Positions 3,133 through 60,409 of a stretch of 64,000 nucleotides of DNA are shown here, piece after piece. Within the stretch, counting starts at the first letter, position 1. Each line of letters starts with the position of its first letter. The translations under genes and the position numbers were made by a program. The stretch comes from Owenia fusiformis. Taxonomy: Eukaryota; Annelida; Polychaeta; Sabellida; Oweniidae. Below the pieces are notes generated by a model, which saw nothing but the letters and a program-made list of their open reading frames with translations, made no database searches and had not been told where the DNA came from. The DNA is taken from contig CAIIXF020000001.1 of NCBI GenBank assembly GCA_903813345.2, positions 5,518,001 through 5,582,000 of the forward strand. Direction: 5' to 3'.

Positions 3133-6100
3133 TCATTTTTTCTGAGGTGTACTCAGTCCATATTTAGATTTCATAGCGTCAAGTTCATCTTTCTTTTTCT
3201 CAGTGTCCATCTTTTTGAAAGCCTGGAAAACAACAAGAGTTACAAAATGTGAGAGGTTGAAAATATGAATATAATAGTAGTAATAAACTAGAGATCTACG
3301 ATTGCAAGCAATCTCACAGAGGACCCCTAAAGACATGTGTTGAGAGGTTGTCATCAATGTAAAAATAGTTTTACAGAAAAACGGCGTTCTATATTCTAGA
3401 ATTTGTAGTTGACCAATTTTGAGAAACTTGGATAATACAGTTTGTGATTAAATTTGATGACCTTTGACCATGCAAATTTTATTTTTTTACACCTCAGTAG
3501 GCTAAACCCAACAATTCTATTTCTATGGTTGCCAGATTTATCTTCTTTAAGCCCACTAAACTTAGTTTAAATGAAAAAATAAAAAAATAATCATTGAAAC
3601 ATGTTACTCACACACTCGCTCAAATATGAGACAGAGTTTGATTTGCTTTAATATTGAACCAAGAAAAAAAAGCTCACAGAGAAAAAAGCATTTGAAGTTC
3701 AGAGATCATTAGTAGTGCATGCACATGATAAACAAAGTGTATGTTTTAAATTACTTCTGATTTAAAAGATGGCGACACTTCTGTAAAATTGAATGTATCC
3801 TGAAATACAAACAACTTCAACACCTTTCAATGACATTGATAAAAACTTGATATATAAAGTTTGACAGATCGAAAATATTTTTGATAATTTATTGTAAGCT
3901 TTGATGTGGTCTGTTTGAGCTGTTGTTGGTGTCAAATGAAAGATAAGGTTTTTATCCATACATTGGACATTCTATAAAATTCAAATATAAGTCTTTATTT
4001 TGCCCAAAAACATTGCAAAGTGGGACTTAAAGGTAGGTGAGTTCTTATTCTTATATTCTGAAGAAATCTTTTTTTGGTGGTGACATAATAAACTGTCACA
4101 AATTATATTTCTGAGATGTTATGCGTGAGTTCTGATCAAAGGTTCAAATTGGTCAAATTGTGGAATATATAAGTGGCAAAAAGTCAGATTTCTCAATAGA
4201 ACAAGGCACAGATGTGAACAATATCGTACCTAAAACACAGCAGTTGTTAACTTTGATACATAGAAACATCCCTGAAAATTTCAGATGAATCCATCAAATG
4301 GTTTGGCTGGAAACCTGTAGACAAGTCTTGAAAGTGAAGATTTGAGGACAGAAAATCAAAAATGGCCACCTTAAAATTAACCCAGAATGCCCAAAAACTA
4401 ATCAGTTGTTAACTTTGATATGTAGAAACATCCCTGTAAATTTCAAATGAATCCGTCAAATGGTTTGGCTGGAAACCTGTAGACAAGTCTTGAAAGTGAA
4501 AATTTTAGGACGGAAAATCCAAAATGGCCACCTTAAATTTTACCCAGAATGCCAAAAAACTAATCAGTTCTTAACTTTGATACGTAGAAACATCCCTGAA
4601 AATTTCAGATGAATCCATCAAATGGTTTGGCTGGAAACCTGTAGACAAGTCTTGAAAGTGAAGATTTTAGGACGGAAAATCCAAAATGGCCACCTTAAAA
4701 TTTACCCAGAATGCCCAAAAACTAATCAGTTCTTAACTTTGATACGTAGAAACATTCCTGAAAATTTCAGATGAATCCGTCAAATGGTTTGGCTGGAAAC
4801 CTGTAGACAAGTCTTGAAAGTGAAGATTTTAGGATGGAAAATCCAAAGTGGCCACCTTAAAATTTACCCAGAATGCCCAAAAACTAATCAGTTCTTAACT
4901 TTGATACGTAGAAACATTCCTGAAAATTTCAGATGAATCCGTCAAATGGTTTGGCTGGAAACCTGTAGACAAGCTGAAAAGTGAGACGCCGCCCGCCTGC
5001 CCGTCAGATAAAAATATAGGCATGATTGAATTGAAATACTTTTGGATTAAAGATATGATTTCTGCTCTTTACCAAAAGACTTGTCCTTTAATCTCGCCTA
5101 CCTCCCCCACAAACTAGCCATGTTTATTAGTAATATCAAGCTAGAGTTGATCTGATAGGCAGCATTCGCGTTAACGCAAAAAACTTGCGTATTTACACTG
5201 ATTTTTGGCCCAGGACCCCGATATTTTAGCTCTATTGCGTCATAGGGAAACCTGCTTACCTTATTTGGCTGGTAGTAAAGCACAACAAGATATCTGTTAC
5301 ACACATTGAAACCCGACAGATGATCACAAGCGTTCTTGGCATCAAAAATGTCTTCATAAACAACAAAAGCTGTGCCTTTGGTCTCTGGTGTTGATCCACT
5401 GTAAAATAAAAAAAAACAGACATTATTTGTGCATAAAAACAAAAATAGAAAAGTGCTTATATCAAAATAATTCAATTGTTGTGCATATTTGAATGATATT
5501 GTAATATTTTATACTCAAGAATCAAAACAAGTTGTAACCCTATCAAACTTTTAACATATTTGTTACATGGGACACCATATTTTGTGAACCAACCTAATTG
5601 TTCTTATAAATAGCAAATATTCTTCCAAATGTGAATGTGTTATAAGAAAGGAGAGAAGGTTAGCACTCCCCTTGATAAGGACGGAAGAAACCCTTGTGGT
5701 TTATAACACACATAGGCATTGTCTCTTACTTTGAGACAACCTTATTTTTAAGACGAAACCTTGATCTGGCTTTTTACTTACACTCTTATCTGCCTAATTG
5801 CTCCATATTTTCCAAATATATCATACATTTCCTCAGCTGTTATCTTGTATGGAAGATTTCTGATGTATAATATGCGGTTCACCTCTGGTGGTAACCGCAC
5901 CTGCGAATAAAATCAGTTGTCACATTATCGAGGAATAATTTTCAGCATATTTGTGGGACAAATTACTAGGACTTTATAAGCTAATTGTTTACATCATTTA
6001 CGTGTAAAAATGTTGCATTAGCCCTAATAAACAAAATATGTTATGAATTACGAAACACATCGTTGAATAATGACGGTAAATTAAACTATTAAAACTTTAA

Positions 6101-16542: not shown

Positions 16543-16566
16543 ATGACTCATCACCATGGATATTAA
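16543..16566 (+). promoter_or_regulatory. Upstream ORF overlapping the start of the duplicated gene
   Basis: An ATG at 16543 opens a seven-codon frame ending TAA at 16564-16566. It runs across the main ATG at 16556 in a different frame. The main ATG has the near-ideal context CACCATGG. Such overlapping uORFs commonly reduce translation; that effect here is inference. Confidence 0.5.
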
Positions 16567-18382
16567 TTTTTTTGTTCCACCTGGATATTTACAATTCCTT
16601 GACCTCAGTTATAGTAGTGCCATCTTGATGGATGATACACCTCTGCCAACAAATTTATGTAACAGAAATGCAGATATATTAATGCAGCGTAAACATAAAC
16701 CTGCACTTGATCGCAATGTAAATGTGAATAGAAAAAGCAGCAGCGTAACAGCTGTACAGAGTTGTTGTATTGATAGTCATAGTATTGGAAATAATAGATT
16801 TATTTATACACAAGCAAATCATCATCATGTGATATCTAGGGATACGTGTAATAAAAGATATACAGATGATAACAGTACCATATTTGACACTCATAAAAAT
16901 GATTCTATTGATGTTTCAAATGTGGACATTATTCAGGATATTATCAGTAAGGTTGAAATATCTGGAAATGAATGCGTCACTATGGGAGGATCCTTGTCAA
17001 AACATATGGTGAATAATGAATTGGTGAATCATAAGAAAAACTCTTTGATAAACAATGAAGATATGCAATCATGGAGTGAGGATAGGATGGAAAGATCAGA
17101 AACGAACATAGACAATCATGAAAATAAGGATTTCAATAGAAACAATGACATGAGTGATACATTATTGCACGACTGTTCATCTTTTGAGATTCAAAGTACT
17201 CCAGTCAAAGAATTTCAGACACTTAAAACAACTCATGACAATAGTAGATGTATGATGCGTACTGTGTTTGTCTCAAGTTTGGAGGCTGACATAGCGGAGG
17301 GCGACATATGTCGGTGTAAACTGGAGTCTATCATTTGCAATGGTGATTGTGAAAATGACAATAACATTATTACAATGAGTGATCATGATGATGAAGATGT
17401 TTTCTCAAGCTGTTTATCTATAAATAAATCACTGTATAGTCCAAACACAACACAATATAAAAGTCTTGACAATACTGTTGAAAGTGAATCAGATAATGAT
17501 GACGACATAGACAAGGATTTAAAATTTGTCTCAACTGATTCTCTACATATTGAAAATTATCATGACTTCATCAATATTGTTGATGACATCATGGATGAGA
17601 CTGATTGTGAACCAGAATGGGATGCATATGATACAGTCATCAACGATGATGATGAAAGTAGAGAGATTGAATGTTCCGTTAATTCAATTTTATCAAATAC
17701 TGGTCCTACAAGACCTTATAGTTTTGGTTATTATAGCGATTCAGAAATCAATGATGATATACCATGCGTTGATAATGTCCTGGAAACAGAACCAAAAGAA
17801 CTTTCTTTCAATGATCATAGCGCTCCCAATTCTGAAATATCTGATACAGAATCATGGACAGAGTTTGGTTCAAATGTTGATTCACCTATGTATATTCATG
17901 CTGTGAAATCTAGTGCCATAGAAAAAAGGAAATCCAGTGCAATAAAAACAAGGTTATCTAGTTGTTCAAGGCACTCAAGCACTTCAGTTGACCCAGATCC
18001 GGCAACTGACACAAGTTTGGACAGATGGTCTGATGCTGAAGAGGTATTTGACAATACTTTCTATCATTCTTTTGCTGATGGATCTATTGTGAATACTGAT
18101 TGTGAATTATCGTGTACTGAAGAAGATAATGATAAGGGTGAGGATAAATCAAAAATGGTGCATCAGCCGTTTGCCAGAAATGCAGTAATACAAGTACTTA
18201 CTGAGAAAATTGATGATGAAATAGCATTGAAGTATAACCAAGATGGCATTGAATCTGTATTTCTTGAACATTATGATGACTTTGTGAATATTGTCATGCC
18301 ACATGAAAAGATTGTAGAGGAAAAAGAGGTTTGGGATGATTTTGTGCCAGGGTGGCAAGGCAATGGCTTGTGGTTGGATTAA
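16556..18382 (+). CDS. Unrecognised acidic, low-complexity protein, upstream tandem copy
   Basis: This is a single open frame of 608 residues with start context CACCATGG and stop TAA at 18380-18382. I do not recognise the family. The protein is rich in Asp, Glu, Ser and Asn, has no signal peptide, membrane segment or Cys/His finger, and looks largely disordered. A related motif occurs twice: around residue 331 (HIENYHDFINIV, then EPEWDAYD) and at the C-terminus near residue 568 (FLEHYDDFVNIV, then EVWDDFVPGW). A small basic Ser patch (KRKSSAIKTRLSSCSRHSS) lies between, and the end is GLWLD. A conserved stretch before the C-terminal motif reads HQPFARNAVIQVLTEKIDDE. The frame is preserved in the second copy at 23643, which supports it as real coding sequence. 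A 5' non-coding exon may exist upstream. Confidence 0.8.
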   Translation: MDINFFVPPGYLQFLDLSYSSAILMDDTPLPTNLCNRNADILMQRKHKPALDRNVNVNRKSSSVTAVQSCCIDSHSIGNNRFIYTQANHHHVISRDTCNKRYTDDNSTIFDTHKNDSIDVSNVDIIQDIISKVEISGNECVTMGGSLSKHMVNNELVNHKKNSLINNEDMQSWSEDRMERSETNIDNHENKDFNRNNDMSDTLLHDCSSFEIQSTPVKEFQTLKTTHDNSRCMMRTVFVSSLEADIAEGDICRCKLESIICNGDCENDNNIITMSDHDDEDVFSSCLSINKSLYSPNTTQYKSLDNTVESESDNDDDIDKDLKFVSTDSLHIENYHDFINIVDDIMDETDCEPEWDAYDTVINDDDESREIECSVNSILSNTGPTRPYSFGYYSDSEINDDIPCVDNVLETEPKELSFNDHSAPNSEISDTESWTEFGSNVDSPMYIHAVKSSAIEKRKSSAIKTRLSSCSRHSSTSVDPDPATDTSLDRWSDAEEVFDNTFYHSFADGSIVNTDCELSCTEEDNDKGEDKSKMVHQPFARNAVIQVLTEKIDDEIALKYNQDGIESVFLEHYDDFVNIVMPHEKIVEEKEVWDDFVPGWQGNGLWLD

Positions 18383-19440
18383 CAGTAACCCTTATTCTAA
18401 ACAATGTATATTGCCACAGTGTAATGTAAATTGCAAGCTTGGTATAAGCTTTTTGTTAAATATTTCTACTTGTATAATGCATTTAGATGTGAAGCACATT
18501 CACGCTGAGTGTTTTGACACAGGATTAATGTTATTGTCTAGATTTAGTTAACTAATGGTTTATAGGGACCTGGGTTATTTTGTGTTTCTTTCATGTTGCC
18601 TATTGAGTTTCTATTTACTTATACTTTATATCATTTATTTATAAAGTGTTCCCAACTAGCAGTTTCTGTATTAGTCTTGTTATCCCTTGTGCAGTTCAAG
18701 AGACACAGTGCAAGTCTATCTCTACATTCCAATTATTCTTGATGCAGAGAATCACCTAAAGGTTGTGTTTTTGATAAATCTCCTATTATGAAAGTCAATA
18801 CAATTCTTACATTTCGATTTTTAAACAATATTTTTCTTATTGTTGCAATTGTAAGAATGATTAGGCTATAATTGTGGGATTTATTGACCCAATGAACGAT
18901 GTTCTGTTGGGATATACTTAAGCTGTCCGTCCGTCTATCCGTCCATCTGGCCATTCCTCCGTCAGTCCGTCAGTCAGTCAGTGTATAATTTTCTATTAAA
19001 ACCACTTTGATTTTTAGTTATTTACCTTTATTCAATTTTCTAGGATTTTCAGGTCTTGTGAAAAAGGTCGAGCTAATTTATTAATCAAAACAAATAGAAA
19101 TACTTTGCCAGCTGTTTCTATCTTATGAATAGTATTCTAGCCTTACCAACACATATGCTGCCATCTATTTATCCATTTACATATAGCAAGTGTTGCATTA
19201 TGAATTTGTTTGCTATGATAATTATCAACTGGAAATTGGTATTTTAAAAAGCTTTCAGAATTGATTTTTAGTTGAGATATTGATTTTTCTACAAGATGCC
19301 ACATATTTTATGAGTCATCTGAGAGCAAGATTTATTGCAGTTTTTTCTTTTGTAATACATTTAATACCTGATGTCTGATAATGAATGTATTGTGGGACCC
19401 CTAATGTGTAGTGCTCATTTTTAAGTTAAGTCCTAATAAA
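18383..19440 (+). other. Probable 3'UTR of the upstream copy, with AATAAA at 19435-19440
   Basis: About 1 kb of non-coding sequence is shared with the second copy. It includes a 5' fragment of the HINE-like family near 18881-18985 with TCCG/TCCATC repeats, also present in copy B at about 25866, so that insertion predates the duplication. AATAAA at 19435-19440 is a candidate signal; copy B has AATAAG at the same place (26428-26433). Confidence 0.5.
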
Positions 19441-19967
19441 GTTTAAGTTTAAAATATGTCATAATGTATAATAATTCAAGATATTGGAAATTAAGATGAC
19501 AGATTTTCTTGAATTTTTACTTTTTAGACAGATTTACAATCTGGAGTCTATTAAGAATAACTAGACATTATGGAGACTCTGTAGGCCATAGGCATTTATG
19601 ACCTTTTGAAGGTTGCAAATATTCTTGAGATGCTAAAATGTTGAAGTGACATATTAGATATGTCATTTTATTCTTGAAATAGTGTGTCCTTTGTTCAGTC
19701 TTTATATTGGTGTTAAAAAGATAATGTTTTTTCACTGTATAGTGGAATATTTGACGATAAAAAAAACTTAACCACTTTTTTAAAAAAGTTCTTTTTTTTA
19801 AATATCCAAAATAACTTATTTTTCAAAAATCTCTAAAATAACTTTTAAATTTGTGACAAATAGGAAATGTTGATAAAAACATATTGGAACTTTAAAGGAA
19901 TGTACATACTGACATTAAGTCAAAATATTGATTGGAGTATAATATTCATCTGGAGTCTTAATGATTA

Positions 19968-20477
19968 CACTGGTGATCCACTCTATTACGCTGATTACCG
20001 AAACGGAACAAAATTTCAGAACCTTTGAAGGTGCGATTTTTCTTTTTTCCTTATTCCATGCGCTAAAGGCAAAATTCCCATGACATTTTTATAACAAACA
20101 CGTGTCAGAATCATATGTCTAAGAAAGTGTACATGTTTGCGAACAAATAGAACAGAAGACCACAGAATCTTCATTTTAATACCTCACTTAATTTACATAA
20201 ACGGAACTTCGAAAAACCGTTAAGATCTGCATTTCTAACCAATTCTGTTTACGTAACTTAAGTGAGGTATTAGATTGACGATGCTATTGTCCTCTTAACT
20301 ATTTGTTCACAAACATGTACATACATATGATACTGACACACGTTTGTGATAAAAATGTCGTGAGAATTCTGCCTACAATGCGTGAAATAAGGAAAAAAAG
20401 AAAAATCTTAACTTCGAGGTTCCGACATTTTGTTAGCGAAACGGTTCGTAATAGTGTAATCAAGTGGATCACCAGTG
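19968..20477. mobile_element. Foldback element with CACTGGTGATCC ends, copy A
   Basis: The outer ends are CACTGGTGATCCACT and AGTGGATCACCAGTG. Arms of about 250 bp pair through TCAGTATCATATG-type and CTAATACCTCACTTAA segments. The flanks GATTA (19963-19967) and AATTA (20478-20482) look like a 5 bp target duplication with one change. The element is present in both duplication units, so it predates the duplication. Opposed short frames at 20299-20529 arise from its right arm. Confidence 0.8.
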
Positions 20478-21587
20478 AATTAGTCATATAAATTATTTTT
20501 ATATAGACATCCTGTATATACTGTAGCAATTTTTGTAAGTCTATTGTACCATTATGTTTATAACATCTTTGGTGTAATTATTTTCATAGTTTTACATATA
20601 ACTGATGACTGTATTATTTACTGTAGACAAAAAAACATCTAAAAAACTATACGTAAATTTCAAAATCTAATGACTTTTTTACCAGAATCTGCAGATTTTG
20701 CATGAGAGTGCTGTTTGATTACTACCTGTGTTCTTGTTTGATTGATTGAAAGGAGATATTGGAACATAAAACTGTTACCTTTGTCTTTATCAAGTATTAC
20801 ATACCTATGGAAGTATTTGTATGGAAGTCAATGGGAAAGTAAGTGGGCTATATCTACCAATATTGCCGGCTTTCTTTATCATCTTGACTAACTGGAGAAA
20901 CAAGATTCCTAGTCACCTCAGAATTGACCTTGGAACACAAAGTGACAAGATAATCCATCACCAAATTTTTCATTAAGATTGCTCTTATTTGAACAATTTT
21001 TATCCAATTTACACAAAAATTGTTTTCAAATGTGTAGAAATGATCAATGCCGTCTAATTTACTAAATTGAGCATCACCTGTTGTATAGATATGTAGTAAA
21101 ATGTCAAAAGCTTGCAAAAATTCCCTGGTTTCAACTGATTTTGAATCCTGTGATTCAAGAGGTTCATAACCATGACAATATCATAACGTCATGCTTAATT
21201 TCAATCAAACTCTACTCGCAACTACAGATGTGTGACGTCATTGATACAAAGTAGCCATGGGAATAAAGTATAATGTAATATATCAGTTGCGTCACTATTA
21301 CGTGAAATATGTCGATAGTTCTTGCCCAAATACCACGGACCGTCTTTGCAAATACAGAGCCTCCCAAGGACAGACTATATTGGCAGAACTGAGGCATATT
21401 TCATATAGAAGTGACATAACCTCAAAATACTATAACAAAGTAATATGTATTTTTGTGAATTATACGGTGTAAACAGATAGAACAATAAATTCCACAAAAA
21501 ACTTAAATACCTGTTTTTGATGATGTTCTAATATTACAATGGCCAGATAAAGATGATTGTGCCAGACTAACTTAAAAATATGAATTA
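20478..21587. other. Non-coding part of duplication unit A
   Basis: Short frames here occur on both strands. They are matched in unit B (32683-33349) only with altered lengths and starts. Nothing suggests protein. Confidence 0.5.
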
Positions 21588-22523
21588 TTATCCCATCGAA
21601 CGAAGTTCGGAGGGATATAGGGAATGCCTCCGTCCCTCCATCCGTCCGTCCGTCCGTACGTACGTCCATCCGTCCGGGCAATAACTCAAATACCGTTGGC
21701 CCGATTTTGTTCATATTTTGTACACATATACCCTATGGGGGTAGATTTTTGCTATAACTCAAAAAATAGTGGAGCGATTTTGTTCATATTTGGTATGTGA
21801 ATACTATAAGTATTGCACACTGTCTAAAGACACTTTTGGTAGAAAGTGGCCATCTTGAAAAATGGCCGCCATTTTAACATATTTTACTATAACTCAAAAA
21901 GTAGTGGAGCGATTTTGTTCATATTTGGTATGTGAATACTATAAGCATGGCACACTGTCCTATGACACTTTTGGTAGAAGGCGGCCATTTTGAAAACAAT
22001 TTTGAAAAATGGCCGCCATTTTAATGTATTTTACTATAACTCGAAAAGTAGTGGAGTGATTTTGTTCATATTTGGTATGTGAATACTATAAGCATGGCAC
22101 ATTGTCTATTTCTAATGACACTTTTGGTAGACAGTGGCCATTTTGAAAAATGGCCGCCATTTTAACGTATTTTACTATAACTCGAAAAGTAGTGGAGCGA
22201 TTTTGTTCATATTTGATATGTGAATACTTTAAGCATGGCACATTGTCTAATAAAACTTTGGGGAGTAGTCGGCCATTTTGAATAATGGCCACCATTTTTA
22301 TGTGTGTTATTTTACAAGTACGTGTGCAATTTTTCAAAAATTTTAGATGTGGCTACTTAAAGCATATTATTTCTTCTGATGACAACTTGGCTAGTGAGCA
22401 ACCATTTTGAAAATGGTGGCCTTTCTGGTGTGTTGTTTTATGATATTTGCTATTCGTTTGTAAAAATGTCAGCCATTTCTGTTCGATGGGATTCGCTACG
22501 CTTTGGCGTTGCCGTTGTTCTGG
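21588..22523 (+). mobile_element. Helitron/HINE-like non-autonomous element with internal tandem repeats
   Basis: The element starts TTATCCCATCGAACGAAG, then has TCCGTCCG-type repeats. Four tandem units of 135-147 bp follow, each beginning CTATAACTC (21752, 21887, 22034, 22175), plus a degenerate fifth. The 3' module is GATGGGATTCGCTACGC, a short hairpin (ACGC...GGCGT-like) and CTGG. Unit B lacks the element: its sequence at about 33425-33435 runs from GAATTA directly into TTTTTG, which fixes the ends to within 2 nt and shows insertion at a T-rich site without target duplication. Helitrons and HINEs end in a hairpin plus CTRR without TSD; the assignment is inferred from those traits. Confidence 0.75.
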
Positions 22524-23613
22524 TTTTTGTTTCTGCTTCATTCAGAAAGTTACAAATAATGAAACAGTATTTGACTGTAAATATATAAGCACAAGTACCA
22601 AAGGGAAAGGACCAAAAGTTGTAATGGAACTCAGCAAGAAAAAGCAAACTCTAAGTGCACACCAGTCAAGAAAAACAAACCCCATATAGCCCAAAACCAT
22701 GATCTAACGTGAAAAGAAACAATGTCTAATACCCCCTTTCCCCCCACCATTCAAGAACCAATATCACAATCCAAGACCAGAAGACTTAGGGACATTTCAT
22801 TCATACTGAAGTCATTACAATACATGTTGAAGAAAAAATTAGAAATTGATAGCCAATTGATAGCCAATACCCATAACCTCAAAAATAGTTGTAGATACAA
22901 GTACTCATACAAGATAGAGCATTCAGTCTCAAATGATGTGGGATAGATAAAATCCAGTATCCAAGTCCATAGGTGTTTCAAAGGGTCAACATCCATTCAC
23001 AAAATGGATTTTACAAAAGTAGGCTAAAACAGGTCACTTTGACAGATATTCAGTAGAATGTGACTATAATAAAACATCGATAATATATTCTTGACATGTG
23101 CAGGAAGATAATGACGTTGCACCATGTACGCATAAAATGCCATGGCATACTCTCAAAATTTATCTCAAAGTTAATTTTTTACATTGAATTACCCCAAATG
23201 TAAAAAGATTGCAAATAATTTCAGTTTAGTAGTACATATTAGTTTTTTGTATTAGAATTTTGTATTTTAAAACACCTGAGAGCGCTTCAAATGTTCTTGG
23301 GGAGAGAAGCCCCTAAACCCCCTCAAAGTTTGCTTGCTTCGCTCACTCATGGCATACTCACAAAATACCACACTACGCCACTGAAGACTTGGTTTTAAAG
23401 TGAATTTTTATATGGTTCCTGGTTTATTAACTTACTCAGAAAGGTTTTTGTACTGCATTTTATAATGCTACACCAAGACCTCTAATTGAAACCATTAGAT
23501 TTTTAATTTATTTAGATATATACCAACAACATTTCACCCAAATATTTCTTTTGAGACCTCTTGCCTTTGAAGCATTTCAGAATCTGATTTCAAAATAAGC
23601 TCATCAGGATTAT
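22524..23613. other. Downstream end of duplication unit A, non-coding
   Basis: It contains about 450 bp not present in unit B (near 22575-23020). Then comes sequence matched at 33600-34036, including AATCTGATTTCAAAATAAGC just before the junction. No protein is recognised. Confidence 0.45.
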
Positions 23614-23642
23614 CAATAAATTTATGTAACAGTTATGCAGAT

Positions 23643-24609
23643 ATGTTAGTGCAGCTTAAACATGAACCTGCACTTGATCGCAGGCCTCCATTGGATTTAA
23701 AACTCAGTTCAGCCAATGTAAATGTGAATAGCAAAAATAGTATTGGAAATAGGCTAATAGATTTATTTATTATTACACAAGCAGATCATCATCATGTGAT
23801 ATCTAGGGATACATGTAATAAAAAATATAGAGATGATAGCAATACCATATTTGACACTCATGAAAATTATTCTATTGATGTTTCAAATGTGGACATTATT
23901 CAAGATATTATCAGTAAGGTTGAAATCTCTGGAAATGAATGCGTCACTATGGGAAGATCCATGTCAAAACATATGGTGAATAATGAATTGGTGAATCATA
24001 AGGAAAACTCTTTGATAAACAATGAAGATATGCAATCATGGAGTGAGGATGGGATGGAAAGATCAAAAACGAACATAGACAATCATGAAAATGACGATTT
24101 CAATAGAAACAATGACATGAGTGATACATTATTGCATGACTGCTCGTCTTTTGAGATTCAAAGTACTCCAGTCAAAGAATGTCAGACACTTAAAACAACT
24201 CATGACAATAGTAGATGTATGATGCGTACCGTGTTTGTCTCAAGTTTGGAGGCTGACATAGCGGAGGGCGACATATGTCGGTGTAAACTGGAGTCTATTA
24301 TTTGCAATGGTGATTGTGAAAATGACAATAACATTATTGCAATGAGTGATCATAATGATGAAGATGTTTTCTCAAGCTGTTTATCTATAAATAAATCTCT
24401 GTATAGTCCAAACACAACACAATATAAAAGTCTTGACAATACTGTTGAAAGTGAATCAGATAATGATGACGACATAGACAAGGATTTAAAATTTGTCTCA
24501 ACTGATTCTCTACATATTGAAAATTATCATGACTTCATCAATATTGTTGATGACATCATGGATGAGACTGATTGTGAACCAGAATGGGATGCATATGACA
24601 CAGTCATCA

Positions 24610-24641
<32 letters not shown>

Positions 24642-25367
24642 AGTAAAGAGATTGAATGTTCCGTTAATTCAGTTTTATCAAATACTGGTCCTACAAGACC
24701 TTATAGTTTTGGTTATTATAGCTATTCAGAAATCAATGATGATATACCATGCATTGATAATGGCCTGGAAACAGAACCAAAAGAGCTTTCTATCAATGAT
24801 CATAGCGCTCCCAATTCTGAAATATCTGATACAGAATCATGGACAGAGTTTGGTTCAAATGTTGATTCACCTATGTATATTCATGCTGTGAAATCTAGTG
24901 CCATAGAAAAAAGGAAATGTAGTGCAATAAAAACAAGGTTATCTAGTTGTTCAAGGCACTCAAGCACTTCAGTTGACCCAGATCCGGCAACTGACACAAG
25001 TTTGGACAGATGGTCTGATGCGGAAGAGGTATTTGAGAATACTTTCTATCATTCTTTTGCTGATGGATCTATTGTGAATACTGATAGTGAATTATCTTGT
25101 ATTGAAGAAGATAATGATAAGGATGAGGATATATCAAAAATGGTGCATCAACCATTTGCCAGAAACGCAGTAATACAAGTACTTACTGAGAAAATTGATG
25201 ATGAAATAGCATTGAAGTATAACCAAGATGGCATTGAATCTGTATTTCTTGAACATTATGATGACTTTGTGAATATTGTAATGCCACATGAAAAGATTGT
25301 AGAGGAAAAAGAGGTTTGGGATGATTTTGTCCCAGGGTGGCAAGGCGATGGCTTGTGGTTGGATTAA
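23643..25367 (+). CDS. Second tandem copy of the acidic protein gene, 5'-truncated
   Basis: An open frame of 574 residues runs to TAA 25365-25367. It is closely similar to the 16556 gene over nearly its whole length, including both (Y/H)DF(I/V)NIV motifs and the GLWLD end. The duplication breakpoint lies inside the coding sequence, so the original ATG, about the first 30 codons and the 5' flank are absent. The first available ATG (23643) comes from an Ile-to-Met change. Every length difference I could align is a multiple of three: 33 nt longer and 42 nt shorter near the start, 9 nt longer, and a GAT run expanded by 15 nt near 24610. The frame is also open upstream of 23643 through the junction to about 23582, following a possible acceptor (TTTCAG). 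It may be expressed from a new upstream exon, or be a still-intact pseudogene; its AATAAA has become AATAAG. Confidence 0.6.
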
Positions 25368-26665
25368 CAGTTACCCTTATTCTAAACAATGTTTATTGCC
25401 ACAGTGTAATGTAAATTGCAAGCTTGGTATAAGCTTTATGTTAAATATTTATACTTGTATAATGCATTTAGAAGTGAAGCACATTCAGGCTAAGTATTTT
25501 GACACAGGATTAATGTTATTGTCTAGATTTAGTTTACTAATGATTTATAGGGACCTGGGTTATTTTGTGTTTCTCTCATGTTGCCTATTGGGTTTCTATT
25601 TACTTATACTTTATATCATTTATTTATTTATAAAGTGTTCCCCACTAGCAGTTTCTGTATTAGTCTTGTTATCCCTTGTGCAGTTCAAGAGACTCAGTGC
25701 AAGTCTATCTCTACATTCCAATTATTTTTGATGCAGAGAATCACCTAAAGGTTGTGTTTTTGATAAATCTCCTATTATAAAAGTAATACAATTCTTACAT
25801 TTCGATTTTTAAACAATATTTTTCTTATTGTTGCAATTGTAAGAATGATTAGGCTATAATTGTGGGATTTATTGACCCAATGAACGATGTTCTGTTGGGA
25901 TATACTGAAGCTGTCCGTCCATCTATCCGTCCATCTGGCCATTCCTCCGTCAGTCCGTCAGTCAATCAGAATTCTGTGTATAATTTTCTATTAAAACCAC
26001 TTTGATTTTTAGTTATTTACCTTTATTCAATTTTCTAGGATTTTCAAGTCTTGTGAAATGAGCTAAATTATTAATCAAAACAAATGGAAATACTTTGCCA
26101 GTTGTTTCTATCTTATGAATAGTATTCTAGCCTTACCAACACATATGCTGCCATATATTTATCCATTTATATAGCAAGTGTTGCATTATGAATTTGTTTG
26201 CTATGATTATTATCAACTGGAAATTGGTATTTTAAAAAGCTTTCAGAATTGATTTTTAGTTGAGATATTGATTTTTCTACAAGATGCCACATATTTTATG
26301 AGTCATCTGAGTGCAAGATTTATTGCAGTTCTTTTTCTTTTGTAATACATTTAATACCTGATGTCTGATAATAAATGTATTGAAGGACCCCTAATACATA
26401 GTGTTCATTTTTTATAAGTTAAGTTGTAATAAGTTGAAGTTGAAGAAAATATGTCATAATGTATAATAATTCAAGATATTGGAAATTCAGATGACAGATT
26501 TTCTTGAATTTTTACTTTTTAGACAGATTTACAATCTGGAGTATAATAAGAATAACTAGACATTATGGAGACTCTGTAGGTCGTAGGCTTTTTTTTTAAA
26601 TTTCTTTTTTTTTCAAAAATCTCTAAAATAACTTCTTTTCAAAAATCTCTAAAATAACTTTTAAA
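25368..26665 (+). other. 3' flank of the second copy, non-coding
   Basis: It matches 18383-19850. It includes the same HINE-like fragment with TCCGTCC repeats (about 25866-25980) and a short tandem duplication of CAAAAATCTCTAAAATAACTT at 26614-26660. The frame at 25321-25731 is 3'UTR-like sequence. Confidence 0.5.
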
Positions 26666-27680
26666 GGAGCATGTAAGTTATGGCAAGCCATTTTCAAAGG
26701 GCTATATCTTTAGTTCGAAGAATAATTTAACCACAAAATCAAATGGTTCTATTAGATCCATGTCTTATCTTCAATAAATGACATTAGGATGATAATCAAA
26801 ATGATTGGATTATCTCTTAAGCTGTCCCTAATCCACCCATCCTCACCAATTTCCCCTAATTCAGACGCAATTTTCACCAAAAGTGCAGGCCTTTTTAATA
26901 ATTTTTAGTGCAAAGTTGTATTGAACTTTCAGACATGATTTAAACTGTAAAGGGGAAAAGTTAATTATGAACCTACTTTTTGGTATTTTTTTTCGTGATT
27001 TTTTCGGATTTTTTCTGATATTATAAGGTGCTTCATACTTATATTATACAATTACAAAATAGAGGGCAGCTAAGTGTCATGAATAATTTGTTTCGCTGTT
27101 TCAAACACTCGGATAGTGACTTACTCAGCTTATGGATTGCCTTAATCCTGTATTTTACCTTGACAATTGTTTGTGTATAAAACAGTTGTGTCATTCACGT
27201 AGAGCTATTTATATACTGAATAGTTCTTTCTAATTACATGTGCCTGGTTTTGGCTATTCAACCTAGACTCTTTGTTTGGGCAGGCTGAAATGAATAAGTG
27301 TAAAAATAAAATGAATCACAGGGTGAGGCAAAAAATGTCATCCAAAGAAATGTTATTAGCTCATTCATCCAGTATGAGTTGAAATCATATTTAGTTAATT
27401 TTACCATGTAAAATCTTTTTGTATTTAACCATGTTTTATGGGTCCATTCCTCAAGGTCACAATTCTATGGCAATTCTACAAATTTCAGCCTCATCCCTTC
27501 AGGCAGACCTACACTGGTCGGTTGAGAATGTAAGGTCACCATCACAGAAATTGTTCTCCTACTTGTTGTAGGGGTTGACATTATCTCAGAGATAGCCCGT
27601 AGTCATGAGATGAGGCTGGCATTTTGGACCATGTTTCGTTTTATATAGCCATAAAATCCAAGACTATTTGGGCAGGGTCG

Positions 27681-28010
27681 ATAATAACGACATTTCTAAG
27701 GGCAATATAGTGAAATATTGGACCGAGGGCCAAAGACCCAAGGTCCAATATTTCACTATATTGTTCGCAGAAATGACGTTATGAGTATTATTACCACCGT
27801 TAACGACCAGGGCTGAAATAACAAGAAAATCTTACGCACTGAACGATATCTAATTTCCCGGGGAAAAATTCCCAGTCCAGAATATATTCTAGACCGGTCC
27901 ATATGGACCACCACTATGACGTCACACATTTCTTAGGTCGACATAGTAAAATGAACGCCTTCTAAACTAGCACTAAAACCCCTAGAACTGGCCCGGCAAG
28001 GTGGTAATAA
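27681..28010 (+). repeat. Compound repeat: long hairpin plus GGTGGTAATAA-ended segment
   Basis: Positions 27681-27724 and 27742-27792 are inverted copies (CAATATAGTGAAATATTGGACC in one arm) around a 17 nt loop. The adjoining part runs from ATTATTACCACCG to GGTGGTAATAA, itself an inverted pair of ends. A second copy in the opposite orientation lies at 35372-35650. Confidence 0.8.
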
Positions 28011-28803
28011 TTAAACTTAGTAAAATGAAATAACATTAAACAAGGTTTTATTATGCGAAATAACACTTTAACAGATGCGGAATTTGTTTGGGCTATATTT
28101 TTGGCTCACTCGGTATTAGACTGCACTTTGATAGTATTCATAATGTCATATGTTGGGTAAAAGGCGATGATTTAACCTACTGTTGATGGCAAATTCATTT
28201 TAATACGAATGAATAGTGGCAGGTGCTATTTATATCTAATGAGCCATAAAATAGTAGGTTGATCTGGCAGATGTTAGTTGAATTCGCGAATACTACTTGT
28301 AAGGGGGTTTCAAAGCCCATGGTCACCTTTGTAGTTTCTTCATCCTAGGTCAAATCCACTCAAGAATGCTCTTAATTACAATGGTGTTATATTAGATGCA
28401 GCATCTATTAATTTCTTGAATCACAGCACCCCTAATCTTAATCATAATTCCGTTGATTGACCTACAGCATAGGCCTAGGGAAAAGTAGTAGGAAGGCAGC
28501 TTATGAGTGCTCTCGATGTTCATAATCTTACTACTACTTTTACATAGGCCTATGACCTACAGATAAGTTTGGGATTCCTTATTAAAACCAAAACCTCTAA
28601 TTCTAATTACAGCCCCTAAAAACAACAACCCCGAACCAAGTGCATGTGGCAGTCATTGAACCCAAAAGCATTTTTATATGCCAACCTATAATGAGACCCC
28701 CTTTAGTGAATAACAACCAGGTAGTCGTCTAAGGTATAGCAACATGTTCAGTTTGTAATTTTATAGAAGGTCACTGAATCCTCTAATCGTTCATTCAGTT
28801 ATG

Positions 28804-28899
28804 GATAAACTATGAGTACTGGGTTTTATGAGAAATAATAGCAAAGGGGCTTGGCCTGAGGCTATTAGTTCTCATAAGACCCATTTCGAATAATTTATC
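28804..28899. repeat. Small foldback repeat
   Basis: The left arm GATAAACTATGAGTACTGGG pairs with the right arm read backwards, GATAAATTATTCGAAATGGG; both continue to (TC)TTATGAGAA and TAATAGC. The loop is around CAAAGGGGCTTGGCCTGAG. Confidence 0.7.
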
Positions 28900-29282
28900 T
28901 AACTTAAAACCCACACTGACTCTTAGGAATGGTAAATGACCCATGATCCAAGTTTAGAAAAATTCTTTTGTATTAACTGTGAGGTAAATGTGTAGAGAAG
29001 TGGGTTGTTTTAATTGGTTCAGCTTCAATGCACCGCATGTATCAGGCAAGGTACAGTTAAAAAGTGTATTTATTTTGTGTTTACAATTCAACTATTGAGT
29101 GATTGAAAATGGTTTAATAAGTACAGCTTCGGTGCACTGCATGTGACAGTCAAGGTGTAATATTGAGCCAAACACTGTCAATCATATTTTGTACCACACT
29201 GGTTTTAGATAGCTTACAGTGTCCATTCTCTAAAAACAATACAACAAGAATGCACTCCTCTTTCTTACTACTGTACATTCTT

Positions 29283-29600
29283 GAAGGTGAACAAGTCTTC
29301 AAATTGATCATTTTTTCAAAATGATCGTCAGGGTCTCAAAAATTCAAATCTGACTTTAGATTTTACAATTATTGACCGCCAATGACCTCAAAGTAGAGGG
29401 TCTAAAAGGTATTTTTCAACTTGCTTCGAATTGACCGAATTTTCAAAATCACCTACAAGTTCTCAGAAGTCAAATCTGACTTTTGATTTGACATTTGACC
29501 TCTCAAGTTCAAAAAGTTTAAAAAGGCATTTTTCAACTTGCTTCAAATAACCTTTTCTTTTCAGGATTTGACTTAAACTACAAGGTGGTGACATTCGTAT
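29283..29600. repeat. Degenerate tandem repeat, TTGACCT/CAAATCTGACTT family
   Basis: Units of about 118 bp carry TTTTTCAACTTGCTTC and TCAAATCTGACTTT. The same family occurs at 40787-41374 and 60947-61370, each ending near a GGTGGTGACA block. Confidence 0.6.
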
Positions 29601-30379
29601 CTCATACCCATGTACATGGGTGGTGATACAGTTTTGAAGGGTTCAATTTTTAAAGTTCTAAAAGATTATTCAATCTAATGCTATCTGAGGTATAAATACA
29701 TTCATAGTATCCATAGATGTGAAATTCGTCTAGTCAAAGATAGATAGATATAGAGTCATAAAATAAAGCCAGAATTGTTAATGTTAGTTTTTCATTGATT
29801 GTCAAAATAGCGCCATTCAAACATGTAGGTCTACAAGTGCATTAATGCACCAACAATTCATATAATCTGAATAATCTGAAACCTTAGAATTAAACTCTTC
29901 AAAGAATATATCATGCCCCAAGTACGCGGGTACGTGGGTACGAGGTATAAGGTTTTTCATACAAAGCCCGAGGTATTGACTGAGGGAATAGAGTGATCGA
30001 GTGACAATATCATAATTACACAAGGCAATACACCTATTGTCAAAGGGTAAAACCCATAGCATTAAACTGTTTATTCCATAAAAATTCCAAGCAGCAAAAA
30101 CAATCCAATAAAAAGAACAGGCGCGTTTATTGGCAAATAATATCCCCATGGTCAAAATAAATAATTCTTAGGTGTAACATGAAGAATAGAATGTTATAAC
30201 TCTTTGGAAAATATTAAAGTGCTCGGGCAAATATAGGCTGAGATATGGGCCATTTAGTTCAGTAAGGTTGTATTGACTTACATGGGACTGTGCATCATTG
30301 ACTTAACATGAGGATATCAGCAGATCCCTATAGAGGCCATTGGTTTCCATTGATTATCACCAAAATACTAAAGATACAC

Positions 30380-30481
30380 TATGACCTGAATCGACTGCAA
30401 CCTTAATAATTTCATAATATGACACAAATGATTTATCTCATCAAATGTGCAAATATGAAGTTTGCAATCGATTCAGGTCAT
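30380..30481. repeat. Small foldback repeat
   Basis: TATGACCTGAATCGACTGCAA at the left pairs with the complement of TTGCAATCGATTCAGGTCATA at the right. The spacer is about 60 nt. Confidence 0.7.
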
Positions 30482-31691
30482 ACTTAAAATTAAATGATTG
30501 TGCATTTTTTCATCTTTTTCCCCCTACGAAATGGCTATAGAAAAATGCTCCAAAAACAACTTTTACACTTATCAAAAATCATACAACTTTGTAAAACCAA
30601 AGAAAATACTATTATGTTTCATTATGTAGTAACATATGTGGATAAGATGTAGGGATGCTTAGGATGCAAATGGATTTTGACAGACATAAAAATACTTCCT
30701 GGTTTGGAATCTATGCCTCTACACTTCATGATTGAATTATGACCCTAATAAGTGGCCTATACATCAATACAGTGCTGAATATAGGTCAACAAGATACTAG
30801 TGTGCATATAAACACATTTATGTTTTACTGAACATACTTTACACGACACAGTCATGTTGACATATCCATGCATGCTCATTTATATAATACGCAATTATGC
30901 AACAATGAATACACACTCAGGGTATTAAGCACATGTAGAATATATCATGCCATCTATGGACCATATATAACTCTATCTATAAACATCATTGCATAAAATA
31001 GGGTACATCTAAATGTCACTCTAAGTGACATCTTTTCATACACTTCACACTAAGGTCATGGCCTATGAGGTAAAAATGACAAATGGATTAACAGATAATG
31101 CTTATCTCATTTAGATCATTTTTTTCTTTTTGGAAATCAATCATGTGACATAGCTCAATGTTTTCGTGCATTAATCTCATTAAAAAATTGCTACTTTTAG
31201 GTCAAAAATTCGGCCTAAAAAAGTTAATGTTTTTGGATTATCCTAATCCCAAAGTAATCAAGTTTTCCTTTTTAGAGGTAGATCATTCCTTGCAATAAAT
31301 TGTAATTTTGCCATAAAAGCTGAAATAAAATGCTGCATTTTTGGTGAAAATTGCGTCCGAATTAGGGAAAATTTGGTGAAGATGGTTGGATTAGGAACAG
31401 CTTAAGAGATAATCCATTCAACTTGATTATCATCCTACTGTAATTTATTGAAGACAAGACATGGATCTAACAGAACCTTTTGTTTTTGTGGTTAAAGTAT
31501 TCTTCGAACTAAAGATATAGCCCTTTGAAAATGGCTTGCCATATCTTACGTGCACCTTTGTGACAAATAGGAAATGTTGATAAAAACATATTTTCAAACT
31601 TTACATCGGAACTCTAAAGGAATGTACATACAGACATTAAATCAAAAATATTGATTGGAGTATAATATTCATCTGGAGTCTTAATAATTAC

Positions 31692-32127
31692 TCAGATGCG
31701 AGTAGGCAGTTACCAGTTTCGCCACCAGGTGGCTGATTCAGGGGAAATAACATGGCAGGATATTACAAAATTCCCTTGAGCTTGAATATTCATTAGTTTT
31801 AGTGGTTCACTTTTCATATTACCCTTATGTATCTGGTCATTATACAAATTAAAATACGTCCAGTAAAAGAAAATATTATCTGCCCAACACTAGAAAAGAT
31901 ATTTCACTTTTTGTGGTTTTACAACATGGGTTCTATGGGGAATCTCCCCGACCTAGAAGTCATATTTTCAAAGAAAATTAAATTTTCAAAGTTTTTTGAT
32001 AAACCCTTTTCAAAACCACATTTCTAGATGTAATTTTGCATGTAGATTCCAAATATGACATCAGTTTGACTGAATTGTGAATTTTTAATGTCATAAATCA
32101 AGATTATTTCTACTCGCATCGAGCATA
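31692..32127 (+). mobile_element. 436 bp TIR element, target duplication ATTAC, present only in unit B
   Basis: It starts TCAGATGCGAGTAGGCAG and ends CTACTCGCATCGAGCAT; the shared inverted core is GATGCGAGTAG. ATTAC lies on both sides (31687-31691 and 32128-32132), and unit A has a single GATTAC at that point (19963-19968). Other members lie at 14420-14686, 34076-34951 (reversed) and 55412-55668 (diverged). Confidence 0.8.
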
Positions 32128-32131
32128 TTAC

Positions 32132-32537
32132 ACTGGTGATCTACTCGATTACGCTGATTACTGAAACGAAACAAAATGTCGGAACCTCGATTTTTGTTTT
32201 TTCCTTATTCCACGCGTTAAAGGCAAAATTCCCATGACATTTTTATAACAAACACGTGTCAGAATCATATGTCTAAGAAAGTGTACATGTTTGCGAACAA
32301 TTAGAACAGAAGACCACCGAATCTTCATTTTAATACCTCTCTTAATTTACATAAACGGAACTTCGTAAAACGGTTAAGATTTGTATTTCTAACCAATTCT
32401 GTTTACGTAACTTAAGTGCTATTGTCCTCTGAACTATTTGTTCGCAAATATGTACATACATATGATACTGACACACATTTGTGATAAAAATGTCGTGAGA
32501 ATTCCGCCTACAATCGTAATTGAGTGGATCACCAGTG
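32132..32537. mobile_element. Foldback element with CACTGGTGATC ends, copy B
   Basis: This is the duplicate of the 19968 element. About 100 bp are missing, mainly from the right arm, so it now pairs less fully. Confidence 0.75.
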
Positions 32538-34075
32538 AATTACTCATATAAATTATTTTTGTTTAGACATCCTGTATATACTGTAGCAGTTTTTGTAAGT
32601 CTATGGTACCATTATTTTAATAACATATTTGGTGTAACTATTTTCATAGTTTTACAAATAACTGATGACTGTATTATATACTTTAGACAAAAAAAACATC
32701 TAAAAAACTGTATAGTGACCCATATGTTGGAGAAACAAGATTTCTAGTCACCTCAGAATTGACCTTGGAACACAAAGTGGCAAGATAATCCATCACCAAA
32801 TTTTTCATTAAGATTGCTCTTATTTGAACAAGTTTTATCCAATTTACACAAAAATTGTTTTCAAATGTGTAGAAATGATCATTGCCGTCTAATTTACTAA
32901 ATTTAGCACCACTTGTTGTATGCATATGTAGTAAAATTTCAAAAGCTTGCAAAAATGAAAAATTCCCTGGTTTCAACTGATTTTAAATCCTGTGATTCAA
33001 GAGGTTAATAACCATGACAATATCATTATGTCATGCTTAATTTCAATCAAACTCTACTCGCAACTACAGATGTGTGACGTCATTGATACAAAGTAGCCAT
33101 GGGAATAAAGTATAATGTAATATATCAGATCAGTTATGTCACTATTACGTGAAATATGTCGATAGTTCTTGCCCAAATACCACGGACCGTCCGTGCAAAT
33201 ACAGAGCCTCCCAAGGACAGTCTATATTGGCAGGACTGAGGCATATTTCATATAGAAGTGACATAACCTCAAAATATTATAACAAAGTATATATTTTTGT
33301 GAATTATACGTTGGAAACAGATGGAACAATAAATTCCAAAACAACTTAAATACCTGTTTTTGATGATGTTCTAATATTACAATGGCCAGATAAAGATGAT
33401 TGTGTCAGACTAACTTAAAAATATGAATTATTTTTGTTTCTGCTTCATACAGAAAGTTACAAATAATGAAACAGTAATTGACAGTAAAGCATTTTAGCAA
33501 AATTGGTATATATGCTAACAAAAGGCATGTTAACCCAGACTCCAATTGAATAATGTCATTTCTGGATTGATGAGACTTCTATCATGAGAAAATAAGTAAG
33601 CTAAAAACAGTTCACTTTGACAGATATTCAGCAGAATGTGGCTATAATTGCATTACATTGAATTACCAAATGTATAAAGATGGCCAATAATTTCAGTTTA
33701 TTAGTACATATTAGTTTTTGTATTTGAATTTTGTATTTTAAAACACTTTAGAGAGCTTCAAATGTTCTTGGGGGAGAAGCCCCTTAACCCCCTCAAAGTT
33801 TGTTTGCTTCGCTCACTCATGGCATACTCACAAAATACCACGCTATGCCACTGGAGACTTGGTTTTAAAGTGAATTTTTATATGGTTCCTGGTTTATTAA
33901 CTTACTCAGAAAGGTTTTAGATTTTAAATTTATTTAGATATATTACCAAAAACATTTCACCCAAATATTTCTTTTGAGACCTCTTACCTTTGGAGCATTT
34001 CAGAATCTGATTTCAAAATAAGCTCATCAGGATTATCATCAGAAGTTAGAATTAATATTAATTAGTGAAACAAAT

Positions 34076-57586: not shown

Positions 57587-60342
57587 CTATATGTTCATCA
57601 AATGATCTGGGATATTATTTGGTTGATACCCAGTAAATGATTCATTCTTAATTGTCTGACTCCCTGGTGTAGATTTATGTTTTCGGTATTTCCCTCTTTT
57701 GTATCCACTTGCCCTACGTTTGGCCAATTGCACAGTTTTCCTGGCTCCATTAAACACGTAACCTTGACCTCTCATACGATTCCTCATTTCCACTTCCATA
57801 TGTCGCTCAAGGTCGCAACGTTTAATAAAAGCCCTATCGCATATATTGCACATGAACTGTTTTGTCTTGTGAAAAAATAAATGCTGTTCGATTTTGTCAA
57901 GTCGTTTTGACCTATAGGGACACAATTTACATTCATACATTTCCCTATTATTAACGTTGACCAGAGAGTATGACTGAAATATTGCATCTGAATGTTCATG
58001 TTTCACCGCTTTGTGGCCCAATACATGGGCCTCATAACATTCTGGGGACCTTGTCTTATAGCTACACATTCTGCAAGGGATCTCTGTACTTAGCATCTTT
58101 AACTTAGTGGAGTTAGCTGGACTTGTACTTGATGTCACCATGACATCTGCAGATGTCACCATAGCATCAACTAAGTCACCTGTTGTCTGATTTGATTCTG
58201 ATGGTGAGATTGATGTGAAACTTGATGTAGAAGGAAGGCTTTCATTGATGTCATTCTTTTCTTGAGTTTTATTCTTATGAATTAGTCCTAGCATGGTTAA
58301 CAAACGATCATTTTTATTCTTTGACTCAGAAGTGTTTTCATCAATTTGAGAGTCTGCCTCCTTATGTTTAGAGTCCTCATATTCCTGGATTGCACCAAGC
58401 TCCCCTTCACTAATGACATTTTCATTTTTGGTTGGTAATTGATTTGACATAACTCCATTTTCAGTTGGGTCCTTTGGTATTTGATTATCAACAGAAACAT
58501 CCATCTTGATCTCTTCATTGTTGTGTTGATTAGGGATTTCAAGTGATACATTCTCATCTTCTATTGATTCACCTTTATCTATATTATCAGTAGTGGTTGC
58601 TGCTTCAATATCATTAGAATCAGACCCTTTCACAGTTTCTGTTTTTTCAACTTGATTTATCTCTGTACGAGGTACACTATTCTTTGGGTTTTCCTTACCA
58701 GGTCCCTGTAGTTTTGTCATCCCACCCACATTGATCTTGTATACAACATTATTTTTGGGTTCTGGTTTATTTTTCAACATCACTATTGCATTTCTATTGG
58801 CAAATAGCTCAACCGTATTATCACCTTGATACTTACACTTAAAATGACCAGTCTTTATACATTTGTTCTTGGTAATAGTCTCCAGTCTTGCAGTATTATT
58901 GGTAAGTTCTAATCCATCATTGATATCTGTTTGTTCTTGTTTTTGTTTCTTTTTCACCAGTTTGGGTATTATTTGTACTTCTTTGTAGAGAATGTTTTGT
59001 GACATTTTCAGAGCTGATTCTGGGCTGTAACTTTGGGACTCCTCAGTTGCTATATATCCCTTGCCTCCATGTTGGATTCCGTGTTTCACTTTGCACTCTT
59101 CAAGGTGAATCTTTAAATTGTCTTTCGCCACAAATATCATGTTGCATAATAAGCACTTGAATGCAACAGTTGATTTAGGAACACCAAACTTGTCAACTGT
59201 TACCTGTAACAGTTGCCCAGTTGTTGTTTTTACTTGCTTTACACATGTGTAACTCTTCTCAGATGGAGGCTTTTGTGCATCGAACATACTTCTCATAGTT
59301 TGAAATCTGCCACCGGGATCCCTTGGTTTGTTCATAGCAATAGATGACTGCACCGTTGAACCACCTGGGGCCATCACAAGCTTTGTTTTGTGTTCTTTCT
59401 CGACATGATAACGAATAGCCTGTTCTGATACAAACATGTGTTTACAATACATACATACAAACATGCACTTCTTCGAAGTATTCCCATGCTCTGGAGAACT
59501 GAAGGGGATATGTTTTATAGGTACATGATTGGTGGGCTGAATGTAGGAAAAATCTGATGTCACTGACCCAGCTACTGACACAATCTTTGGAGAGAAATCA
59601 CTGATATCACTCACATTATGTGATAGTTGCCCTGTATCCTGACACACTGCAGAGGCTTGTATTAATAATGGAGAGGTCGGTGCTGATATTGCAGATGTTG
59701 TTAACACAGCAGATGCTGGTGATGATATAACAGGTACTGCTGGGCCATCAGGGATATCTAGTGATGGCACATGTTTGACTTCTCTATTTGTACTCTTGCA
59801 TAGCACCCCTAGCATCTCATTTGCAGTTAAACTGTGTGTCTCCAAATGTTTAAAGAATCGTACTGTGCTATTAGATTTGAAGCCACAGGTTGGGCATTCA
59901 GACGCATGATCCGGATGTATTGTCCTCAAATGCTTCTCAAATGAATTCAAACTAGTTGAGTTATACTTACAATCGTTATAGTAAGGACATTCATAGTAAT
60001 ATTTCTCATGTGTATCAACATGCCGTACAAAATCAGATAAATATAACATAGCTTTGTCGCACACTGGACAGATATAGTTGCCATTATGTGATTGCATGTG
60101 CATATCATACCTGACTTTTTGATTGGTTTTATATTTACACCTAACACAATTATAAGTCCATGCCCCCTGGTGTGGTTTCCTAGGGCCTCCGATCCAATCA
60201 TTTTCTGGACCTGGATAATAGTCTTGAGATTCACCAATATATGAATTGTCATATGGCATGTTGGGGTATTGAGGCTCTGCTTTAATTTCCAGGGACGGGT
60301 CATCAGGGCTGGCCCAGATTGAAGAGTCCATAAGAGAACTCG
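57587..60342 (-). CDS. Multi-C2H2 zinc-finger protein, large 3' exon
   Basis: The exon begins after TTATTTCAG at 60342 and is open to the stop at 57587-57589. The first ATG at 60331 gives 914 residues. It holds nine C2H2-like fingers. Four are clustered near the N-terminus: C62/C65/H78/H82, C88/C91/H104/H108, C115/C121/H134/H139 and C146/C149/H162/H166. Two sit in the middle (VCMYC...HVEKEH; KCLLC...H). Three lie near the C-terminus (CRMC...HVLGH, CKLC...HLFFH, CNIC...RHMEVEM, whose last His is lost). Long Ser/Asn/Glu-rich linkers separate them, and the tail is basic (KRRASGYKRGKYRKHK). A nuclear DNA-binding regulator is likely; the orthologue is not named. The frame is also open for the 11 nt before the ATG, and the acceptor phase fits the donor at 61797, so this may be the 3' exon of the gene beginning right of the window. 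Confidence 0.85.
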
Positions 60343-60409
60343 CTGAAATAACAATGCATTAACAATGCATTAACATGACAAGGTGGAGGAGGTAGATTAA
60401 ACAAACTCA

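Follow-up and report, generated by a model that had tools for sequence, protein, structure and literature searches.

A 5'-truncated tandem gene duplicate with an open reading frame in the annelid Owenia fusiformis

Results

Gene content and structure of the duplicated locus

We analysed a window of 64,000 nucleotides from Owenia fusiformis (assembly GCA_903813345.2, contig CAIIXF020000001.1, positions 5,518,001 to 5,582,000 of the forward strand), in which a prior reading of the letters alone (hereafter the sequence-only reading) had described a tandem gene duplication at 16556-25367 with its breakpoint inside the coding sequence and both frames intact. All positions are those of the window. 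The two long open reading frames (ORFs) are present where that reading had placed them, with 608 and 574 codons respectively, and belong to a pair of head-to-tail units made up as follows:

16556-18382, plus strand: ORF A, 608 amino acids; keeps the original 5' flank; acidic and probably disordered
23643-25367, plus strand: ORF B, 574 amino acids; in-frame ATG aligned with codon 41 of ORF A
23949-23951, plus strand: possible alternative start of ORF B, aligned with Met143 of ORF A; context actATGG as against gatATGT at 23643
16647-23613, plus strand: unit 1, 6,967 bp; its left breakpoint lies within codon 31 of ORF A
23614-34038, plus strand: unit 2, 10,425 bp counting what are best read as later insertions; right end corresponds to that of unit 1
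23612-23616, no strand assigned: junction of unit 1 and unit 2, leading from the unit end to codon 31 of the gene; 2-nucleotide (CA) overlap
32127-34038, plus strand: remainder of unit 2; collinear with 19964-23615 in unit 1 and beyond the coordinates of the sequence-only reading

Self-comparison of the window resolved unit 1 (16647-23613) and unit 2 (23614-34038), and nine collinear segments join 16647-23615 to 23614-34038, covering 5,003 of the 6,967 bases in unit 1. The first segment (16647-19597 against 23614-26592) comprises the gene and its 3' flank at 93.7% identity, and the last stops at 23615 in unit 1 and at 34038 in unit 2. Similarity between the copies starts within codon 31 of ORF A, at its second base, in agreement with the proposed breakpoint about 30 codons into copy A, and the sequence that closes unit 2 is the same as that directly upstream of ORF B. 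The outer flanks (500 bases before 16647 and 38 after 34038) have no 20-mers in common with the rest of the window, and from about 34077 on the right flank of unit 2 is a multicopy repeat. The collinear segments, the breakpoint inside the gene and the unrepeated outer flanks together indicate a simple head-to-tail tandem duplication, that is, a partial (5'-truncated) duplication of one ~7-kb unit, ordinary in structure. The extent originally given does contain both gene copies, but the duplicated unit reaches 34038 rather than 25367. Seven aligned pieces of the two units diverge by 2.7-7.7% of bases, which is compatible with one duplication event, and the overlap of only 2 nucleotides at the junction points to non-homologous or microhomology-mediated joining. 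The second copy is not of the processed (retroposed) kind, limited to the transcript, as the similarity carries on, though interrupted, for about 5 kb beyond the stop codon as far as the unit end. Searching the assembly (498 Mb in 525 contigs, the window lying on a large contig) with ORF A reported exactly two matches, A and B, both at the DNA level and at the protein level (E <= 10).

Start sites of the two copies

Copy B had been described as having lost its ATG and therefore bound to decay. Met1 and Met25 of A are indeed both gone from B, but the claim was too strong, since B has an in-frame ATG of its own at 23643, where codon 41 of A reads ATA; two codons further on, A has an ATG (Met43) and B a GTG. 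The frame of B is open for 24 further codons upstream of 23643. The possible alternative start at 23949 has a stronger context (actATGG) than that at 23643 (gatATGT). Were B to start there, its first 102 codons would be leader, which would suit the relaxed replacement rate described below, and would suit the net in-frame indels less well.

On the other side of the duplication, a short upstream ORF (16543-16566, MTHHHGY) is out of frame with ORF A and overlaps its start, and it is possible from this arrangement that it exerts translational control of ORF A.

Coding indels and codon statistics

The two copies were compared in a codon alignment set by the DNA gaps, because a protein-first alignment misplaced the N-terminal gaps and inflated the nonsynonymous rate (dN; NG86 0.356 over the first 60 codons). 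Four net coding indels separate A from B (33, 42, net 9 and 18 nucleotides). The first two are as initially described, when all four (33, 42, 9 and 15) were held to be multiples of three; the "9" is made up of a 5-nucleotide and a 4-nucleotide gap 15 aligned bases apart, so that the frames differ for a few codons, and the "15" is an 18-nucleotide indel in a GAT run. The net-9 indel may represent two compensating out-of-frame indels or one complex change. A frame-broken duplicated pseudogene does not describe ORF B, with 574 codons open and indels that are net in frame.

The alignment holds 563 codons, of which 7 in the frame-ambiguous stretch were dropped and 556 used. These contain 59 nucleotide differences, with 38 replacement and 19 silent codons. 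Replacements thus outnumber silent changes, as had been noticed by eye, and the ratio of nonsynonymous to synonymous rates (dN/dS, omega) is nevertheless 0.42 for the whole ORF (profile interval about 0.25-0.75), so that an omega of 1, near which the sequence-only reading would have counted as refuted, is rejected (p = 0.005; omega 0.46 and p = 0.0096 with the 7 ambiguous codons kept). A second reference is 0.5, the pairwise omega expected if only A were constrained (at least 0.5 with B neutral). By equal quarters of the gene, omega is 1.94, 0.13, 0.33 and 0.16, with p = 0.017 (above), 0.060, 0.53 and 0.057 against 0.5.

Uneven constraint along the gene

Replacements are unevenly distributed, the best single split falling at A residue 117, and an equally strong split was reached in 0 of 1000 column permutations. 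The breakpoint-proximal part (A residues 32-116, 64 codons) has 16 replacements and 1 silent change, giving an omega of 3.6 (p = 0.155 against 1, p = 0.017 above 0.5). All but one of the four net coding indels also fall in it. The part beyond residue 117 (492 codons) has 22 replacements and 18 silent changes, giving an omega of 0.26 (p = 0.0001 against 1, p = 0.047 against 0.5), and from residue 200, a post hoc cut, omega is 0.19 (p = 0.009 against 0.5). An omega below 0.5 in the right part suggests constraint on both A and B there, although the significance is modest and the cuts were picked from the data. We weighed an excess of mutation at the breakpoint as a source of the proximal changes and set it aside, as 16647-16906, with 16 substitutions in 218 bases (7.3%), is only marginally above the non-coding rate (124 in 2,868, 4.3%; p = 0.06). 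The constrained part holds 18 of the 19 silent changes in 492 of the 556 codons, and as a whole is therefore unlike a conversion tract.

Non-coding divergence and expected decay of copy B

Five non-coding stretches of the unit (four short ones of 55-135 alignment columns are left out of the count) carry 124 substitutions (4.3%) and 21 indels in 2,868 aligned bp. The observation that flanking non-coding indels are of other sizes is borne out, 16 of the 21 not being multiples of three, and the contrast with the coding sequence is real. We simulated a neutral B by giving it half of the non-coding distance (20,000 copies per run). No new stop arose in 29% of copies, no frameshifting indel in 0.8% and neither in 0.23%, rising to 0.3% when compensating indels were allowed; these figures rest on 21 indels and assume equal coding and non-coding rates, and gene conversion would raise them. 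A survival of 0.0023-0.003 makes the open frame of B unlikely under neutrality. A very recent duplication, one of the two explanations first offered, is consequently not the whole story, as at 4.3% non-coding divergence an unconstrained frame should usually have broken. The other, relaxed but real constraint, fares better given an omega below 1 and rare neutral survival, although the constraint is not uniform (16:1 near the breakpoint) and 0.5 is not rejected for the whole frame.

The encoded protein

The protein encoded by ORF A is acidic (12.3% D, 7.6% E and 11.7% S, net charge -72) and probably disordered. The family, which the sequence-only reading did not recognise, stays without a match: in Pfam-A no model reached its curated cut-off with either protein; the only hits, LAG1 DNA-binding for A (E 1.2) and RNase J beta-CASP for B (E 0.08), each matched just one of two near-identical proteins and were rejected. 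With A as the query, 0 chains in the PDB matched at E <= 5. A resemblance to PPP1R15 was considered and set aside, as nothing matched. Viral contigs yielded no relative in a weak scan that relied on two short peptide patterns, each taken from the N-terminal part, which changes fast. AlphaFold2 run from the two sequences gave a mean predicted local distance difference test (pLDDT) score of 27 with no residue at 50 or more, which fits disorder and equally a shallow alignment. Residues 315-358 and 553-596 of A (17498-17629 and 18212-18343) form an internal repeat sharing ...YxDF(I/V)NIV...WD..., with a local score of 59 that was reached in 0 of 2000 shuffles of the C-terminal part, and both stretches are unchanged between A and B. 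Our guess is an intrinsically disordered regulatory or scaffold protein.

Discussion

A probable retained 5'-truncated paralogue

The reading that we favour, with reasonable though far from full confidence, is that ORF B is a 5'-truncated paralogue that has been retained, under constraint along most of the frame but relaxed beside the breakpoint. A ~7-kb segment, from codon 31 of a single-copy parent gene to about 5 kb past its stop, would have been duplicated head to tail, the junction being formed by non-homologous or microhomology-mediated joining. The upstream copy A would have retained the promoter side and the full N-terminus, and the downstream copy B would have received the tail of unit 1 as its new 5' side. 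Selection on B itself would keep the frame open, mainly in the part aligned with A residues about 117 to 608, and the breakpoint-adjacent part would be relaxed or adaptive. If transcribed, B would probably yield an acidic, disordered product lacking the first ~40 residues of A (start at 23643), or a shorter one (start at 23949).

Several observations weigh against this reading. The first ATG of B, at 23643, is in a weak context and is preceded by two short upstream ATGs, a start-stop at 23624 and a frame of four codons at 23635. Whole-ORF omega is not below 0.5 (p = 0.58), so that whole-gene dN/dS alone allows a neutral B, and no single quarter is significantly below 0.5. The comparison is a pairwise one without an outgroup, in which changes are not assignable to A or B, and the residue-117 split and the residue-200 cut were both picked on the data. 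Finally, 17401-17900 diverges little (10 of 500 bases, 2.0%; p = 0.013 against non-coding), which local gene conversion from A could also yield, and such conversion would help to hold the frame of B open.

A more far-reaching version, which we put forward only tentatively, is that B is a putative working new gene, with an intergenic 5' side, a start acquired via the ATA/ATG difference at codon 41 or at Met143, and a newly evolved N-terminal segment on which selection is positive or relaxed (16 replacements to 1 silent change, with indels that are in frame or compensate each other), the remainder with its two related D-F-I/V-N-I-V motifs being kept by selection.

Alternative explanations

The strongest alternative, doubtful in our view, is that B is a duplicate without function, so far spared a disabling mutation, with A alone constrained. 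It would account for a whole-ORF omega compatible with 0.5, for a breakpoint-proximal part that evolves no more slowly than non-coding DNA and in which three of the four net indels lie, and for the poorly placed ATG at 23643. It sits badly with the low neutral survival of the frame and with the omega past residue 200, the latter depending on a post hoc cut.

An assembly artefact, in which the units are two alleles of one locus misassembled end to end and B is the second allele with its 5' end cut by the join, appears unlikely. Two alleles would be expected to show the same codon statistics, including both intact frames, indels in multiples of three and low omega, without selection on a second gene, and the insertions present in one unit only (see below) could be allelic. 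Against this, the 64-kb window contains no N and the units meet in a clean base-level join with a 2-nucleotide overlap. The 4.3% non-coding divergence is very high for alleles. The other gene-sized stretch tested (57587-60358, minus strand) had no second match in the assembly, so that no retained allele is seen there, which is weak evidence in the same direction.

Least probable of all, and very unlikely, is that B has no promoter of its own and belongs to the transcription unit of A, as an alternative or read-through product, spliced for example from an upstream A exon. Such an arrangement would be consistent with its position on the same strand about 5.3 kb past the stop of A without A's 5' flank and with AG dinucleotides seen by eye just after the junction, but AGs are expected by chance, and A has its own stop followed by candidate poly(A) signals at 18995 and 19435.

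Comparison with known partial duplications

Ordinary 5'-truncated duplicates and duplicated pseudogenes are copies without the promoter and N-terminus of their parent, most of which are expected to decay. ORF B is like them in lacking both, and unlike them in that 574 codons are still open and pairwise omega is below 1. Partial duplication with a breakpoint inside a gene is itself an already known way for genes to duplicate, and tandem duplications of this type have been surveyed in Drosophila yakuba (Rogers et al., 2017; PMC5460883). There, as here, a gene fragment is caught up in a head-to-tail duplication and becomes fused to the non-coding DNA next to it. The relevant section of that survey deals, on the basis of RNA-seq, with 5' gene fragments that switch on adjacent sequence, whereas in O. 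fusiformis the 5' piece is missing from the duplicate, non-coding divergence is about 4% and the case is known from its DNA sequence. What stands out is that the frame of the truncated copy has not closed and that most of it seems to be under constraint. Should B be made, it would be a gene that lost its start in the duplication and yet stayed coding, with neutral yardsticks adjoining it in the non-coding parts of the unit and the later insertions, and it would illustrate both the gain of a start by a truncated copy and a loosening of constraint confined to the neighbourhood of the breakpoint.

Differences between the units

Outside the gene, the units differ by three larger features:

26666-31556, no strand assigned: multicopy element, 4,891 bp; ~300-bp inverted ends, 84% alike; unit 2 only
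31692-32126, no strand assigned: multicopy repeat, 435 bp; unit 2 only
21747-22298: tandem array, ~135-bp unit, 4 copies; inside a 934-bp stretch found in unit 1 only

Unit 1 is continuous across 19849/19850, the empty site of the 4,891-bp element. In the assembly the element has at least 216 matches, in one or several pieces and often reaching both ends exactly (38 of 6,112 candidates scored), and among the matches listed the best long ones elsewhere are 99% identical. The longest of the stop-to-stop frames listed within the element has 116 amino acids, and the element is probably a young non-autonomous DNA transposon, judging from these features. Of 3,736 candidates for the 435-bp repeat 40 were scored, and 39 of these are further near-full-length copies that are 92-95% alike to it. 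Both are best read as insertions postdating the duplication, which would explain why unit 2 is longer than unit 1. The 934 bp around the ~135-bp tandem repeat in unit 1 have no counterpart in unit 2, and may have been gained in the one or lost from the other. The stretch 23110-23385, close to the tail of unit 1 and immediately upstream of ORF B, belongs to a dispersed repeat (40 of 284 candidates in the assembly scored).

Other features of the window

Two further open frames, 57587-60358 on the minus strand (923 amino acids) and 247-840 on the plus strand (197 amino acids), we take by eye to be C2H2 zinc-finger-like. A third (5098-5508, minus strand) may resemble the splicing factor SF3B6 (p14). 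A tandem array with a 162-bp unit occupies 4241-4984 (4.6 copies, 95% matches).

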